Assembly: GCF_003288815.1 (NCBI RefSeq)
Contig: NZ_NHYM01000016.1
Span: 1-32,525 of the forward strand
Source: Helicobacter sp. 16-1353
GTDB taxonomy: Bacteria; Campylobacterota; Campylobacteria; Campylobacterales; Helicobacteraceae
DNA length: 32,525 nucleotides
Direction: 5' to 3'
A program made the position numbers and the translations under genes. The notes under the pieces are model-generated. The model searched no databases, was not told the DNA's origin, and saw only the letters and a list, made by a program, of their open reading frames with translations. Of the stretch, positions 1 to 27,692 are shown one piece after another (the stretch's first letter is position 1; each line of letters opens with the position of its first letter).

Positions 1-34
1 CTTATCCCCCCTTTGCTTCGCAATCCCCCCAAAC

Positions 35-50
35 CCCCGATGACGCTTCT
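35..50. repeat. Left arm of 16-bp inverted repeat
   Basis: CCCCGATGACGCTTCT at 35-50 is the exact reverse complement of 1248-1263. The two arms bracket the ABC ATPase gene and the FeoB-associated small gene. The identity was read directly; its function is unknown. Confidence 0.8.
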
Positions 51-90
51 TGCGGTGTCCGTTGCTGACGCACGGAGACTAAGAAGTTAA

Positions 91-116
91 TTTAAAATTG
101 CTAAAGCAATTTTAAA
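91..116. repeat. Palindrome, AAAATTGC family, copy 1
   Basis: The left arm TTTAAAATTGC (91-101), loop TAAA and exact reverse-complement right arm (106-116) form an 11-bp perfect hairpin. It lies 35 nt past the stop of the ABC ATPase gene and could act as a transcription terminator for it. Three related copies lie at 1190-1208, 1631-1654 and 1740-1760. Confidence 0.8.
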
Positions 117-150
117 ATCTATTTTTTAGCTTTAACGCCCAAGTTTAGCC

Positions 151-996
151 CTAATATTTCCCCACGAATCCTAAAAATTTACTCTCAAAATCGCATTCCA
201 CCACTTCCAAATCTTCATAATTCTCAAATGTGTAAATATAATTAAAATCCTTATATTTCTCGCACTGGGCGAATTTATAGGAATCTAGATTCTGCGTTTT
301 TTCTATCTTGTAGCACTTAAAATGCTCCAAAAAATAGCCCATACTCTCCTTATACACAAGTCCGCCCTTTTGAACGATAATCATTCTATCAATCAACCCC
401 ACCAAATCGCCCATAATGTGGGAAGTTAGGATAATAGTCTTTCTAATATTTTTCTGCGAATCCCAAATATAATTCTTAAGATAATCCACAAAAAGCCTCC
501 TATAGCCCACATCAAGCCCCATTGAGTAGTCATCAAGGATTAAAAGCCTCGCATCTTGGGCGAAAACAAGCCCCAAAACCACTTGCGACTTCTGCCCAAA
601 TGAAAGAGTGCCGAGCTTTTGCGTGTATTTTAAGCCCATCAAATCGACTAGCTCATAGAAATACTCCCTTTTCCACTTGGGGTAAAATGCGGCAAAAAAC
701 CGCTCTATTGTTTGAATATCCATAAAATCATAGGTGATAAAATTCTCAAACAATAGGGCGATATCTCGCTTGGCACTGGGGCTTAGAGTGCTACTATCCT
801 CGCCAAATATCTTGCAAACACCACTTTTTGGCTTAATATATCCCATAAGTATGTTAATAAGCGTGGATTTCCCCACTCCATTCTTGCCTAAGACCCCAAA
901 TACCGAGTATTCCTCGATATTTAGGCTCAAGTTTTCATAGATTTTTTTACTGCCATAATTATGAGAGAGGTTCTCAATCTGTATGATGTTTTGCAT
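151..996 (-). CDS. ABC transporter ATP-binding protein (orphan in this window)
   Basis: This is a nucleotide-binding subunit of an ABC exporter-like system, 281 residues from the ATG at 996. An upstream in-frame start would sit inside the preceding small gene and is not needed. Walker A is GKNGVGKS (37-44), the signature is LSFGQ (131-135), Walker B is LLILD (151-155), and a switch histidine follows in LTSHI. The residue after Walker B is Asp (LDDYSMGLD) where most ABC ATPases have the catalytic Glu, so hydrolysis may be slow or the family distinct. A short C-terminal extension follows the domain. No permease gene is visible; it may lie left of position 1. The start overlaps the end of the Cys-rich gene by 23 bp, which suggests translational coupling. 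The substrate is unknown. Confidence 0.88.
   Translation of the reverse strand: MQNIIQIENLSHNYGSKKIYENLSLNIEEYSVFGVLGKNGVGKSTLINILMGYIKPKSGVCKIFGEDSSTLSPSAKRDIALLFENFITYDFMDIQTIERFFAAFYPKWKREYFYELVDLMGLKYTQKLGTLSFGQKSQVVLGLVFAQDARLLILDDYSMGLDVGYRRLFVDYLKNYIWDSQKNIRKTIILTSHIMGDLVGLIDRMIIVQKGGLVYKESMGYFLEHFKCYKIEKTQNLDSYKFAQCEKYKDFNYIYTFENYEDLEVVECDFESKFLGFVGKY
281..297. repeat. 17-bp word built on the GAATCTAGATTC palindrome, copy A
   Basis: GAATCTAGATTCTGCGT occurs here inside the ABC ATPase gene and identically at 5478-5494 inside feoB. On the coding strand both encode the peptide TQNLDS. The 12-bp palindromic core also appears at 1505-1516 (noncoding) and 5460-5471 (feoB). Confidence 0.8.
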
Positions 997-1114
997 TTTT
1001 GCTCTCACAGCAACTGCCCTCTTTACCACAGCCACAGCCTTTTTTCTTTACTGCTGAATACACCAAGTAGATTCCAGCTAATATTGCCAAACCAAGAACT
1101 ATAAAAATTTCCAT
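974..1114 (-). CDS. FeoB-associated Cys-rich small membrane protein
   Basis: This is a 46-residue protein starting at the ATG at 1114, preceded by AAAGGA at a good distance. A single hydrophobic segment covers residues 3-22 (IFIVLGLAILAGIYLVYSAV). A basic KKK and a cysteine cluster GCGCGKEGSCC (26-36) follow, then a short His-containing tail (KHHTD). This layout matches the FeoB-associated Cys-rich membrane proteins (Pfam FeoB_associated), which usually lie next to feoB and are thought to assist Fe(II) transport. Here feoB is about 2.1 kb away in the same orientation, separated by two metal-related genes and by noncoding DNA. The stop (974-976) lies inside the ABC ATPase gene that begins at 996. 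I am confident that the gene is real and fairly confident of the family. Confidence 0.82.
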   Translation of the reverse strand: MEIFIVLGLAILAGIYLVYSAVKKKGCGCGKEGSCCESKNAKHHTD

Positions 1115-1189
1115 TTTTTTCCTTTACATTAATTTTATGCGAACAAATCCGCTTTTGTGTGAATCTCACGCCCCATTCGAACCTTTGTA

Positions 1190-1208
1190 AAAATTGCGAC
1201 GCAATTTT
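1190..1208. repeat. Palindrome, AAAATTGC family, copy 2
   Basis: The left arm AAAATTGC (1190-1197), loop GAC and right arm GCAATTTT (1201-1208) form a perfect 8-bp stem. It lies upstream of the FeoB-associated small gene. Confidence 0.8.
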
Positions 1209-1213
1209 AGTTA

Positions 1214-1253
1214 GCTTCTCAAGTCCTGTGCGAAGCACAGCATTGAGAGAAGC
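1214..1253. repeat. 40-nt hairpin
   Basis: The outer arms GCTTCTCAA (1214-1222) and TTGAGAGAAGC (1243-1253) pair with a 2-nt bulge. They enclose the inner stem CTGTGC (1226-1231) and GCACAG (1235-1240) with loop GAA. No U-run follows on either strand, so a simple intrinsic terminator is not obvious. Confidence 0.65.
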
Positions 1254-1263
1254 GTCATCGGGG
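1248..1263. repeat. Right arm of 16-bp inverted repeat
   Basis: AGAAGCGTCATCGGGG is the exact reverse complement of 35-50. With that copy it flanks the small Cys-rich gene and the ABC ATPase gene. Confidence 0.8.
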
Positions 1264-1387
1264 ATTGGTAGGAAATTTCGCTTCGCTCATTTTCCAAGAA
1301 GCTACGCTTTGGTGGCTTTGGAGGAATAGGGAGAGAATTTTGCCTTTACAAGAAACTTCGCTCCGCTCGTTTTACTAGAAACTGCGT

Positions 1388-1406
1388 TTTGCCACGCAGT
1401 GGCAAA
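1388..1406. repeat. Hairpin with 8-bp stem
   Basis: The arms TTTGCCAC (1388-1395) and GTGGCAAA (1399-1406) pair perfectly around a GCA loop. Confidence 0.65.
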
Positions 1407-1411
1407 TTCAT

Positions 1412-1434
1412 CATTCAAGCCCCTTGTCCCCCTT
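1412..1434. repeat. C/G-tract dispersed repeat, inverted copy
   Basis: The stretch beginning CATTCAAGCCCC (1412) and running into the C-run at about 1433 matches the reverse complement of 32473-32495 apart from one C in a C-run. A shorter related CTTATCCCCC word begins the window at position 1 and recurs at about 32510. Confidence 0.7.
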
Positions 1435-1547
1435 TACTAAACAAATCGCCTTAATTTTAAAGTTAAGATTCTTTGGAAGAGCGACTTTATAAGGGCTTTG
1501 CCTTGAATCTAGATTCGCTTAAAAGGGCAAAGCGTTTTTATTCGGTG

Positions 1548-1562
1548 GAGGGCTTCGCCCTC
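1548..1562. repeat. GC-rich hairpin
   Basis: The arms GAGGGC (1548-1553) and GCCCTC (1557-1562) flank a TTC loop. This is a locally GC-rich element in AT-rich noncoding DNA. Confidence 0.6.
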
Positions 1563-1600
1563 GATTCTATTCTCATTTTTGCCCACCACCCCTTTTTTAT

Positions 1601-1622
1601 GTATGAGATTGACGCCTCATAC
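1601..1622. repeat. Hairpin with 7-bp stem
   Basis: The arms GTATGAG (1601-1607) and CTCATAC (1616-1622) pair around an 8-nt loop. A T-run precedes it on the plus strand, so on the minus strand the hairpin is not followed by a long U-run. Confidence 0.55.
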
Positions 1623-1630
1623 AAGATTTA

Positions 1631-1654
1631 TAAAAATTGCTAAAGCAATTTTTA
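1631..1654. repeat. Palindrome, AAAATTGC family, copy 3
   Basis: The left arm TAAAAATTGC (1631-1640), loop TAAA and right arm GCAATTTTTA (1645-1654) form a perfect 10-bp stem. Confidence 0.8.
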
Positions 1655-1682
1655 AAGGATTTCATGTGAGGGCAAAGTCCTC

Positions 1683-1792
1683 TTTAACTTTTTCCGCCTA
1701 CGCCTATATTTGGGCGTTTCACGCAGAATCTTAAGTCTATAAAATTGCTACGCAATTTTAAAGATTCTGCGAGATTTGCTTAAAAAGTTAAA
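1683..1792. repeat. Nested inverted repeat of about 110 bp
   Basis: Three perfect stems nest inside each other. The outer arms are TTTAACTTTTT (1683-1693) with 1782-1792, the middle arms CGCAGAATCTT (1722-1732) with 1761-1771, and the inner arms TAAAATTGC (1740-1748) with 1752-1760. A further pair, GTTTCAC (1716-1722) with GTGAAAC (1794-1800), would compete with the middle stem. The locus would fold strongly as RNA or as a cruciform; its role is unknown. Confidence 0.65.
1740..1760. repeat. Palindrome, AAAATTGC family, copy 4
   Basis: TAAAATTGC (1740-1748), loop TAC and GCAATTTTA (1752-1760) form the apex of the larger nested inverted repeat at 1683-1792. Confidence 0.8.
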
Positions 1793-1864
1793 AGTGAAAC
1801 AAAAAATTTTTTATATTTTTGTCGTTCCCAAGAATCTAGCTTTATTTTTTTACTAGAATCTTAT

Positions 1865-2025
1865 AGATTCTCGCTCAAACCGTTCAAGGATTCCATAGAA
1901 TCCCCAAGTTTCAGCGAAATTTCTTTAAAGATTCCGCCGAATCCTATTAAAATTTCCGCCAAAATTTTTCCAAAATCCCTAAGGATTCTACCGAAACTTT
2001 CACACAAGATTCCGCCAAAACCCCC
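1865..2025. repeat. Degenerate GATTCCGCC-type repeat array
   Basis: The word GATTC followed by CGCC or TACC and GAA/AAA recurs at irregular spacing (about 1930, 1953, 1984 and 2008), with further GATTC/GAATC words around it. A 69-codon minus-strand frame crosses the array, but its glycine- and isoleucine-rich product only mirrors the repeat, so I do not call a gene. The same GATTCCGCC word builds the Ser/Glu-rich insertion of feoB at 5362-5395. Confidence 0.5.
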
Positions 2026-3238: not shown

Positions 3239-6142
3239 TTATTTTCCCTCCTTTGATTGATATACAGCGGATAGTCCACCGCTCCAATTTTTCCGCTTCT
3301 CAGGGATAAATCCAAGTATTAAAGCAATGATTAGCACGATTGCATAATAAAAACTCATCGCCTCTAAACCGCCCAAATTTAGGGCATTTGAGATGGTGAA
3401 AAATAGTGAAGAGACGATTAATGCGAGTGAAAATGGAAAAAGCAGTGCAAAAATCATCCACAACCAGCTATTTGTCTGCATTTTTAAAACTATCATTGTG
3501 GCTATGCAAGGGGGCGTAAGTAGCATAAAGATTATGATACTTGCGGCGTGCAAAGGCGTGTAGCCACTATTTTGTGCCATTGCCTCCTCTGGTCTAAGCT
3601 GTGCTTGCGAAGCAGATAAATCTGCATTAGATTCTGCAGAATCTGTGTTTAGATTCGCATTAGATTCTAGATTCACACTAGATTCCGCGGTTTTTGTAAT
3701 AGATTTCGCATTCGTGGAATCCACATTTAGATTCGCAGATTCTGCATTAGATTCCACATTTGGATTCGCCCCAGATTCCACATTTTCTATAATTGGACTT
3801 TTTCCCTGCTCGTAGATACTTCCTAAGGTTGCCACGGCAGATTCCCGTGCGGCAAATGAGCTTAAGAACGCCACATTTATTTTCCAATCAAATCCAGCAA
3901 ATTTTGAAATCGGCTCTAACGCCCTCCCAGCCATACCTAAAAGGGAGTTTTCTATCTTGTCGTTTTTCTGCTCTCGCAAGATTTTATTTTTACCATTTGA
4001 TAGTTTTCGAAGCTCTGTATTTATAACCCTAGCGTCTTTATCGCCCTTTGGCACTTTGATAAATTTATAGATTTCCGGGTATTTTTTTTCAAAAACTTCA
4101 TCGACATCGCTTCCCCCAGTCATTTTTTTGCCTCGATAGTTCTCATAGACATTTAACGCATTTGCGACTTTTTCCCTAGAATCCAGCATTTCATAGTATT
4201 TAGTTTTTTTCACTTTTTTATCAAAAACAGCCAGAATCTTCGCTTCTTCGCCGTTATAATAATCTTGCTTCTCCTTGCTTAATCCGGGGAATTGCAACAT
4301 CGCAAAAAGTATGATAGCCACGGCTAGAACGATAGTGCAGACCTTTTTGATATACACCCACACGCGCTCCAACGCCCTTAAAATTACACCCTTAAAAGTC
4401 GGCAAATGATATGGCGGAAGCTCCATCACAAATGGTGCCGTTTGCCTTGTTTGAAGTATGGTGGAAGTTAGAATTTTTGCGATAATTAGGGCAGCAAAAA
4501 TAGTAATCGTGGAGATGTAAAATAGCATTAAACTCATATGAGCTGCAAAAAACGCCCCAACTAAAAGCGTGTAGAACGGCACTTTTGCAAGGCAGTTCAT
4601 AAGTGGCACAGTTAGAATCGTCGCCATTCTAGCCCTATCATCGGCGATTCCTTTCGTAGACATTATCCCCGGAACCGCACAGCCCCCGACGAACGCCCCT
4701 CCAAGCACAAGTGGCAGAGTGCTCTGCCCATGAAGCCCAAATTTCCTAAACACCCTATCTAAAATAAACGCCATTCTAGGCATATAGCCAATATCCTCTA
4801 AAATCGCAATGAGCGAGAAAAGTATCAAAAATATTGGGATATAGTTTAGGAGTGCATTCACGGAGTTTATAAGCCAAATGGCTAGGTCGGTTGTCATCGG
4901 CACATGCGTAATATCCCCAGCTGGGCTTATATCAATTACGAAATTTTTTAGCGTAGCTAGAATAGGCCAAGTATAATTCGTAAGCTTATAGCCGCCCACA
5001 ATCGAGGCTTCATAAATGATAAAAATAATCAGCAGCAAAATAGGGAAGCTAAGCCATCGATTTAGCACGAATCTATCGACCTTATCAGTTAATGTTTTCT
5101 GCCCCTTTTTGGTCTCTTTAATACACTTGTGGTAGATGATATCAGCACTATCGTAGCGGATATTTGCCAAAAAATGCTCGATATCTTTGTCGAATTTATT
5201 ATGAAAATCTGCTCTTAAATTTTCTACTTCATCACTAATATTTTGTGTGGATTCCGTTATTTTTTCCGGAGCGTTATTCGTCTTGTTTTCCGGCGCGTTT
5301 AAAGTCGCAGATTTCGCTACAGATTCTGCCGGAGATTCCGTCGCACTCGCAGACTTCGCCACAGATTCCGCCGGAGATTCCGCCGGAGATTCCGCCATAT
5401 TTTGCAAAATATTAATGATAAAGCTATCGCCCTCTAGGGCTTTTATCGCAAGCCACCTAGAATCTAGATTCTTCCTCGAATCTAGATTCTGCGTCTTGGC
5501 TCTTATTTTCCCCTCAAGCTGAGCGATGTAGGATTCTAGCTCATCGTAATTTATGCGAAAATTCGTATATGTTAGATTCTTGCTATTGATAATTGCCTCT
5601 AAAATCTCTTCTTTTCCCACGCCTTTTGCGGCACTTGCCTCGATAACTGGGCAGTTTAGAAGCCCCGCGATTTTAGCAGTATCAATTTTTATGCCTCGAT
5701 TTTTCGCCACATCACACATATTTAGCACCACAATTACGGGCTTTCCAATCTCTAGGAGCTGGAAAGTTAGGTAGAGATTCCGCTTGATATTTGAAGCATC
5801 GATGATGTTTAAAATAATGTCCGGATTCTCATTTATGATAAATTCCTTGGCGACCTTTTCTTCCAGTGAATACGAGCTAAACGAGTATGTGCCGGGCAAA
5901 TCGACCACTTCAATATCGTTATTTTTATAGCTAAAATGCCCTGATTTTTTATCCACCGTTACGCCCGGATAATTAGCGATATGCTGCCTAATCCCGCTTA
6001 TCATATTAAAAACCGTGGATTTACCGCAGTTTGGCTGACCTGCTAGGGCGACTTTTATCTTGCTCTTATGCAATGAAGTATTTTCTATTTTATTAGAATC
6101 TATTATTTGATTGGAGTCGTCTTGATTTTTTTCATCACTCAT
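3239..6142 (-). CDS. feoB: Ferrous iron transporter FeoB with low-complexity insertions
   Basis: FeoB moves Fe(II) across the inner membrane, using a cytosolic G domain. The G domain shows G1 GQPNCGKS (35-42), G2 Thr62 in YPGVTVD, G3 DLPG (81-84), G4 NMCD (141-144) and G5 SAAKG (170-174). Multiple membrane segments and two Gate regions follow, with the typical GGCAVPGIM and TPPCIATM motifs. At 967 residues it is far longer than the H. pylori protein as I remember it. Part of the excess is two Ser/Glu/Asp/Asn-rich stretches, residues about 250-300 (between G domain and membrane part) and about 787-845 (a loop before the last Gate). Both are encoded by GAATCT/GATTCC words. The start overlaps the feoA stop in an ATGA arrangement. 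Confidence 0.96.
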   Translation of the reverse strand: MSDEKNQDDSNQIIDSNKIENTSLHKSKIKVALAGQPNCGKSTVFNMISGIRQHIANYPGVTVDKKSGHFSYKNNDIEVVDLPGTYSFSSYSLEEKVAKEFIINENPDIILNIIDASNIKRNLYLTFQLLEIGKPVIVVLNMCDVAKNRGIKIDTAKIAGLLNCPVIEASAAKGVGKEEILEAIINSKNLTYTNFRINYDELESYIAQLEGKIRAKTQNLDSRKNLDSRWLAIKALEGDSFIINILQNMAESPAESPAESVAKSASATESPAESVAKSATLNAPENKTNNAPEKITESTQNISDEVENLRADFHNKFDKDIEHFLANIRYDSADIIYHKCIKETKKGQKTLTDKVDRFVLNRWLSFPILLLIIFIIYEASIVGGYKLTNYTWPILATLKNFVIDISPAGDITHVPMTTDLAIWLINSVNALLNYIPIFLILFSLIAILEDIGYMPRMAFILDRVFRKFGLHGQSTLPLVLGGAFVGGCAVPGIMSTKGIADDRARMATILTVPLMNCLAKVPFYTLLVGAFFAAHMSLMLFYISTITIFAALIIAKILTSTILQTRQTAPFVMELPPYHLPTFKGVILRALERVWVYIKKVCTIVLAVAIILFAMLQFPGLSKEKQDYYNGEEAKILAVFDKKVKKTKYYEMLDSREKVANALNVYENYRGKKMTGGSDVDEVFEKKYPEIYKFIKVPKGDKDARVINTELRKLSNGKNKILREQKNDKIENSLLGMAGRALEPISKFAGFDWKINVAFLSSFAARESAVATLGSIYEQGKSPIIENVESGANPNVESNAESANLNVDSTNAKSITKTAESSVNLESNANLNTDSAESNADLSASQAQLRPEEAMAQNSGYTPLHAASIIIFMLLTPPCIATMIVLKMQTNSWLWMIFALLFPFSLALIVSSLFFTISNALNLGGLEAMSFYYAIVLIIALILGFIPEKRKNWSGGLSAVYQSKEGK
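3608..3784. repeat. GAATCT/GATTCC expansion in feoB, loop before the last Gate
   Basis: Repeated GATTC/GAATC words encode residues about 787-845, rich in ES, DS and NLN. The reading frame stays open throughout. The stretch lies between conserved FeoB membrane blocks, so it looks like an insertion in a loop. Confidence 0.7.
5243..5395. repeat. GATTCCGCC expansion in feoB, after the G domain
   Basis: Near-tandem GATTCCGCCGGA units at the right end (5362-5395) pass into looser copies. They encode the AESPAESPAES type peptide at residues about 250-300. Confidence 0.75.
5478..5494. repeat. 17-bp word built on the GAATCTAGATTC palindrome, copy B
   Basis: This is identical to 281-297 in the ABC ATPase gene. 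The 12-bp palindrome also occurs 18 bp to the left at 5460-5471. Together the two copies encode the repeated NLDSRKNLDSR in FeoB. Confidence 0.8.
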
Positions 6143-27660: not shown

Positions 27661-27692
27661 AAGATTCTAGAATCTACACTAGAATCTTTTCT
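27661..27692 (+). terminator. Intrinsic terminator built from AAGATTCTAG arms
   Basis: The arms AAGATTCTAG (27661-27670) and CTAGAATCTT (27679-27688) form a perfect 10-bp stem, followed on the plus strand by TTCTTTTATC. It lies about 95 bp after the DUF3943 gene, and the ribBA stop codon sits in its loop, so it may stop both converging transcripts. Confidence 0.55.

Follow-up and report, generated by a model that had tools for sequence, protein, structure and literature searches.

What kind of DNA is a noncoding stretch in which different short perfect hairpins are densely packed? The question arises at positions 1115-1860 of the window, the whole stretch of DNA that was analysed (32,525 bp), which makes up contig C7, one of the 32 contigs of a 1.907-Mb genome (G000, the own genome). 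The stretch lies in a 1-kb gap (1036-2042) between two minus-strand genes, which according to Pfam encode an ABC ATPase (151-1035) and a DUF4198 protein (2043-2864). The window ORF list has no ORF of at least 80 aa inside this gap. A preliminary description had suggested either a mosaic of miniature palindromic elements or a structured RNA locus.

Hairpin density and a dispersed family

Hairpins were counted in 1115-1860 and in 1000 dinucleotide shuffles. With a minimum arm of 6 and a loop of 3-8, 9 perfect hairpins were present, against a shuffle mean of 2.09 (8/1000 reached 9), and those with arms of at least 7 numbered 6, against a mean of 0.64 (5/1000 reached the count). Five hairpins had the GC-loop-GC form with arms of at least 5, their loops being GAC, GAA, TTC, TAAA and TAC; the shuffle mean was 0.12, and 0/1000 shuffles reached 5. 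The hairpin density and the shared architecture reported earlier, loops included, were thus confirmed. Further inverted repeats had been claimed for the flank at 1-150, where we found a short hairpin at 13-23 and, at 91-116, one with 11-bp arms and a TAAA loop. The six best-scoring 746-nt stretches across the window all overlapped the locus. Searching more widely for the GC-N3/4-GC pattern (arms of 6 or more), we found 17 hairpins in the noncoding DNA of a 400-kb own-genome sample versus 0.7 expected. The noncoding DNA of same-genus samples had one in G001 (0.65 expected) and none in G003 or G004. As a separate observation, GATTC/GAATC words were enriched across the window (6.33 per kb versus 3.61 expected; for example, 5459-5490 and 27661-27688). 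They often form AGAATCTAGATTCT palindromes and are present also in relatives and in G073, a genome of another genus.

The locus is a single copy of a noncoding intergenic element, about 0.5 to 0.75 kb long, that is dispersed in the own genome. With window positions 1000-1900 as a query, blastn gave 20 matches in the own genome (the window itself counted), and among 39 other genomes, 4 had a single short match each (39-62 nt). The motif GAAGCGTCATCGGGG was found at 15 sites with at most 2 mismatches, compared to 0 in a reversed control; two of the 15 (L043 and L044) were coding and were set aside as chance hits. Model R1, which describes the hairpin 2/M1 region by sequence alone, gave 43 matches in the own genome, counted at E<=0.01 with partial matches and inverted 3' units included, and one marginal match (E 0.004) among 9 other genomes. 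Model R2 gave 14 matches in the own genome at E<=0.01 and marginal ones only elsewhere (E 0.0007-0.008). The scored copies lie in gaps between ORFs, and some contig ends of the own genome fall within copies. The copies L141/L046 (C29:71.9k) and L119 (C11:198.4k) adjoin another mosaic module, GGGGTTTCGAAA..CTTCGTCG, which has GGAGGAAC-TTA-GTTCCTCC and similar hairpins.

Across 121 family genomes, model R1 was positive in one other genome, G073, with 2 matches (best E 4.4e-6). The G073 copy has the core AAGCGTTGTCGGGGG..GATAAGGGGG..AATTCAAGCCCC in common and different hairpin arms. This distant homologue means that the element family is not confined to one species. Seven of the 19 G073 contig starts that were fetched match the G073 copy, which fits a multicopy repeat breaking assembly. 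The exact pattern AGAAGCGTCRTCGGGGNTT was present in 5 records, all from unrelated taxa and read as chance, in a set from which the own and very near genomes are perhaps absent. The plasmids searched had no match to the element pattern. Another genus of the family, represented by G011, has many GC-GNA-GC sites, which were rejected as copies of this element; both noncoding hits in the G011 sample belong to a distinct dispersed repeat, GTCATTCTGA-variable hairpin-GAAGAATC, that is CGTC/TGTC-REP-like (L096 4591-4606 and L101 2888-2903). That repeat had 12 hits in 193 kb, 6 of them in coding frames. The literature searched, with subscription papers mostly outside its reach, gave no recognised description of the present element.

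Structure of the element

The copy in the window (copy W, plus strand) extends from about 1131 to 1800, according to blastn to 11 other own-genome regions and to models R1 and R2, which matched at 1176-1263 and 1413-1504, respectively. Together with a separate copy at 1-128, this makes the unit larger than first noted. Copy W sits between the DUF4198 gene and a small ORF followed by the ABC ATPase gene, and since it lies between minus-strand genes it is antisense to them. The small ORF (about 970-1114, minus strand; MEIFIVLGLAILAG..CGCGKEGSCCES, read by eye) begins right at the element edge and presumably resembles a FeoB-associated Cys-rich membrane protein. The copy at 1-128 (minus strand) is cut by the contig end. 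It was recognized by an R1 match at 35-128 and by a 47-nt identity to the end of contig C5, in which it continues up to an inverted-repeat tip at C5:46000. The first 47 bases of C7 are thus identical to the end of C5, both within an element copy, and C5 and C7 are probably neighbours in the genome. The ABC ATPase gene would then be flanked by two copies in opposite orientations, with an ABC-permease-like gene beyond.

On the plus strand, copy W starts with a degenerate hairpin 1 of the GTGTGAATCTCACGCC type (1157-1174), its 5' inverted-repeat tip having decayed. Hairpin 2, AAAATTGC-GAC-GCAATTTT (1190-1208), has arms that covary between copies. The segment at 1215-1263 comprises an outer stem, CTTCTC..GAAG, around CTGTGC-GAA-GCACAG (1226-1240), and then GAAGCGTCATCGGGG (1249-1263), the most conserved motif of the element. 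The variable hairpin GGAAATTTCGCTTCGCTCATTTTCC with AAGC-TAC-GCTT (1271-1309) differs from the hairpins that take its place in other copies. An accretion site follows (1343-1412) with three stacked mini-palindrome units, including TTTGCCAC-GCA-GTGGCAAA at 1388-1406, and it is followed by the conserved module AAGCCCCTTGTCCCCC...GGGCTTTGCCTT (1413-1504) described by model R2. Further on are the hairpin GGTGGAGGGC-TTC-GCCCTC (1548-1562) and a C-rich box, GCCCACCACCCC (1581-1592), within 1544-1592; an extra terminal-type unit at 1600-1654, with the hairpin TGTATGAG..CTCATACA and TAAAAATTGC-TAAA-GCAATTTTTA; and the 3' hairpin 2, TAAAATTGC-TAC-GCAATTTTA (1740-1760), on the inverted-repeat side, where the terminal tip is unrecognizable. 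The module order of the element is a C-rich box, hairpin 1 (GTGAGG..CCTCAC), hairpin 2 (AATTGC..GCAATT), an outer stem CTTCTT..AAGAAG around CCGTGC..GCACGG, GAAGCGTCATCGGGG, a G-rich arm pairing with CCCCTTGTCCCCC, then GGCTTTGCC, GGTGGAGGGCTTCGCCCTC, another C-rich box and, last, the terminal hairpins in inverted form.

The ends were best seen in the copy at C31:31467-31997 (531 bp). This copy is complete, with an inverted repeat some 20 bp long (TTTTGTCCYAYCYAYCRCC) at either end, each next to TA; it begins with ATTTTGTCCTACCTACCGCC and ends in inverted GCGATGGATAGGACAAAAT, and paired hairpins lie inward of the inverted repeats. Ten terminal inverted-repeat (TIR) tips (TTTTGTCCYAYC) were recognized, after 4 of 14 regex hits had been dropped as spurious, and 9 of the 10 were preceded by TA, compared with 10.9% TA among noncoding dinucleotides. 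Both tips were found in one copy only; in most copies, including that of the window, the tips are degenerate or absent. The TA could belong to the repeat itself instead of being a duplicated target, and no target duplication longer than TA was seen at the copies. At up to 3 mismatches, the own genome had only 11 TIR-like sites, with no autonomous partner among them.

The arms of the hairpins vary between copies yet remain complementary. In 18 sequences, two of them from another genus, 102 of the 108 cells of the hairpin 2 arms were Watson-Crick paired and 8 were changed on both sides; for the M1 hairpin (16 sequences), 90 of 96 cells were paired and 8 were changed on both sides. When the arms were re-dealt, 0/5000 trials reached the pairing of either hairpin. 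The arms were entered by hand, those of W2C5 and L030a without their one-base bulge. Applied to the plain alignment, RNAalifold found changes on both sides in only 2/12 pairs, and its covariation term was slightly unfavourable, so the case for covariation rests on curation hairpin by hairpin. A single hairpin position can carry loops in both complements (GAA and TTC; TAAA and TTTA). Among 67 unique noncoding hairpins, GNA/TNC accounted for 27 of 45 triloops and GNNA/TNNC for 11 of 22 tetraloops (12.5% expected in each case), and TAAA/TTTA, which does not fit the GNNA/TNNC pattern, accounted for 10 of 22 tetraloops. Homologous copies are pooled in these loop and arm counts, which are therefore not independent, and the P values overstate the case. 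According to PMC4686876, a GNA or GNNA loop with at least two G-C pairs makes an extraordinarily stable DNA mini-hairpin, with a Tm of up to 78 C.

At the accretion site, between GGAGCGATTTCGC and AAGCCC, 0, 1, 2, 3 and 4 mini-palindrome units were present in 4, 6, 3, 2 and 1 of 16 scorable copies, respectively, with TTTTRC between units. The window copy is among the two with three units. Unit counts were read from the inserts, and 2 of 18 sequences had no match. Another copy, L174 (C11:60740-61390), bears tandem AAAGCGTAGCTTC-type units, as if mini-palindromes had expanded locally.

Insertion into gene gaps and the preferred explanation

We compared the gaps holding copies with the corresponding gaps of same-genus genomes. 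Of 27 places given, 24 had two flanking ORFs and 5 were comparable, with both neighbours side by side in relatives. In all five, the neighbour genes were 2-52 bp apart in the same-genus genomes, versus 479-752 bp in the own genome with a copy between them, and no same-genus relative had any of the five gaps filled. This indicates that the copies were inserted, some of them into operons; the filled and empty sites in these sequences, at 5/5 gaps against same-genus species, point to mobility of the element between species. The five were two gaps in succession within a tolC-mexA-mexB-like set, fba-efp, a nifS-nifU-like pair and the L148 gap. Apart from the aldolase and the Pfam names of the window, the gene names are our reading of translations. 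The aldolase (fba) matches PDB 3c4u, which we take to be an H. pylori entry, over its full length (557 bits), and on this ground the organism is probably Helicobacter-like. Comparing long gaps between genomes was weak, as long gaps are found in G001 also. At the window locus itself, the flanking ABC gene had no match at E<=1e-40 in any of the 59 other family genomes searched, so an empty-site comparison was not available there. The copies persist between genes and are probably cotranscribed, and by splitting conserved neighbourhoods (tolC-mexA-mexB-like, fba-efp, nifS-nifU-like) they may retune operons in this Helicobacter-like genus.

The first of the two earlier interpretations, a mosaic of miniature palindromic elements, is supported by copies dispersed over one genome, by the empty gaps of relatives, by palindromes that covary and modules that are swapped, and by mini-palindromes stacked in variable numbers at one internal site. 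We consider it likely that the locus is a copy of a nonautonomous, noncoding, palindrome-rich insertion element that is moved in trans and whose palindromes turn over as hairpins. The copies would have been moved in trans by a transposase with TA as its target, as in the case of MITEs that are linked to IS630-type transposases. Inside the element, the palindromes would be renewed as single-strand hairpins when DNA is replicated or repaired (by template switching, loop inversion or slippage), a process that would keep the arms complementary and favour GNA/GNNA loops, unusually stable in DNA. Rearrangement at the module level could also come from ordinary recombination between copies.

A more tentative idea concerns the mini-palindromes themselves. 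These units of about 17-30 nt might be the smallest mobile or copyable units, stacking at the fixed internal site with TTTTRC between them and being inverted or re-armed by hairpin-templated synthesis; they would be favoured for their extreme stability as single-stranded DNA (GNA/GNNA loops). If so, what looks like a "transposon" would be a colony of DNA hairpins that evolves while a MITE carries it. The natural series of 0-4 units at one site, complementary arm swaps and loops in both complements (GAA/TTC and TAAA/TTTA) makes the origin and upkeep of short perfect genomic palindromes directly testable.

RNA, REP and MITE systems compared

The second earlier interpretation was a structured RNA locus. 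A functional RNA, operon internal and regulatory or mRNA stabilizing, kept by selection on the transcript, would explain the compensatory arm changes and two terminator-like hairpins. It would also fit the finding that the flanking genes were co-directional for 13/13 scored copies (P 0.04; 18 loci given, 14 rows returned, one a repeat of the window copy). However, a wider set gave 21 of 23 distinct gaps co-directional against a baseline of 78%, which is not significant (P about 0.1, worked by hand), and an insertion bias toward such gaps, suggestive at first, was dropped. The scored copies were about equally sense and antisense to the flanking genes (7 versus 6). The difference in minimum folding energy between strands averaged -2.7 (standard deviation, 10.6) for 17 sequences; neither strand folds better, which argues against one functional RNA. 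In 55 near-perfect hairpins, 3 GT and 4 AC mismatches were found, with no excess of GU. Rfam gave no family at the gathering threshold at the locus (two tRNAs only in the window, and weak chance-level hits in 1-2100), and the element was absent from the comparable orthologous gaps of the same genus. Without a strand preference in folding, mismatches or orientation, the palindromes look maintained as DNA, and we regard the RNA interpretation as improbable.

Less probable still is a REP/BIME system, in which REP palindromes are moved by a REP-associated Y1 transposase (RAYT). BIMEs and REPs of the GTAG and CGTC families are, according to PMC3733652, intergenic mosaics of short palindromes with complementary stem changes, and the element similarly is an intergenic palindrome mosaic in both orientations with a species-specific set. 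But a search for the Y1 transposase (PF01797) gave 0 matches in the own genome and four same-genus genomes, while it was positive in 3/10 genomes and 5/14 controls; the unit is a TIR-bounded composite of 0.5-0.75 kb without a RAYT in the genome, compared with 20-40 bp for a REP. CGTC REPs, in the same paper, lack a dedicated transposase, are present in Sulfurovum and carry CGTC at the foot of an 8- to 9-bp stem with a 4- to 5-nt loop, whereas the CGTC of the element, as read from the copies by eye, is inside GAAGCGTCATCGGGG with no such stem following. Hairpins arising from chance or composition, or decayed genes in long spacers, are hardly credible, for although a few such hairpins are present in coding DNA too, the shuffles, the dispersed homologous copies and the near-abutting neighbours in relatives speak against them, and the copies and empty sites ruled out a chance origin.

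The palindrome-rich insertion element also resembles Rickettsia palindromic elements (RPEs), which are palindromic, have long stems and are limited to a lineage. RPEs also insert in coding genes. Their size is 105-146 bp (PMC2229807), as against 0.5-0.75 kb. The d(GCGNAGC) DNA mini-hairpins are similar in that GC-GNA-GC and GNNA loops recur in the copies, but they are defined as a motif of biophysics rather than as a family of genomic elements, and the common TAAA loops of the element do not fit. Stem-loop families in other bacteria are listed in PMC1590033. Bacterial MITEs (RUP, Correia/NEMIS, ERIC) are, as described in PMC2229807, noncoding, intergenic, TIR bounded and highly base paired, with TA termini and presumed mobilization in trans, like the element; RUP, in the same paper, is a TA-targeted MITE linked to an IS630-type transposase. 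The element has TIRs (both tips in the C31 copy, 10 tips in all), no coding capacity, and filled and empty sites. Bacterial MITEs are about 100-200 bp, while the element, at 0.5-0.75 kb, has mostly lost its tips and has a mosaic body with swappable hairpins. On the best reading, then, it works most like a MITE with a BIME-like body, a nonautonomous mosaic.
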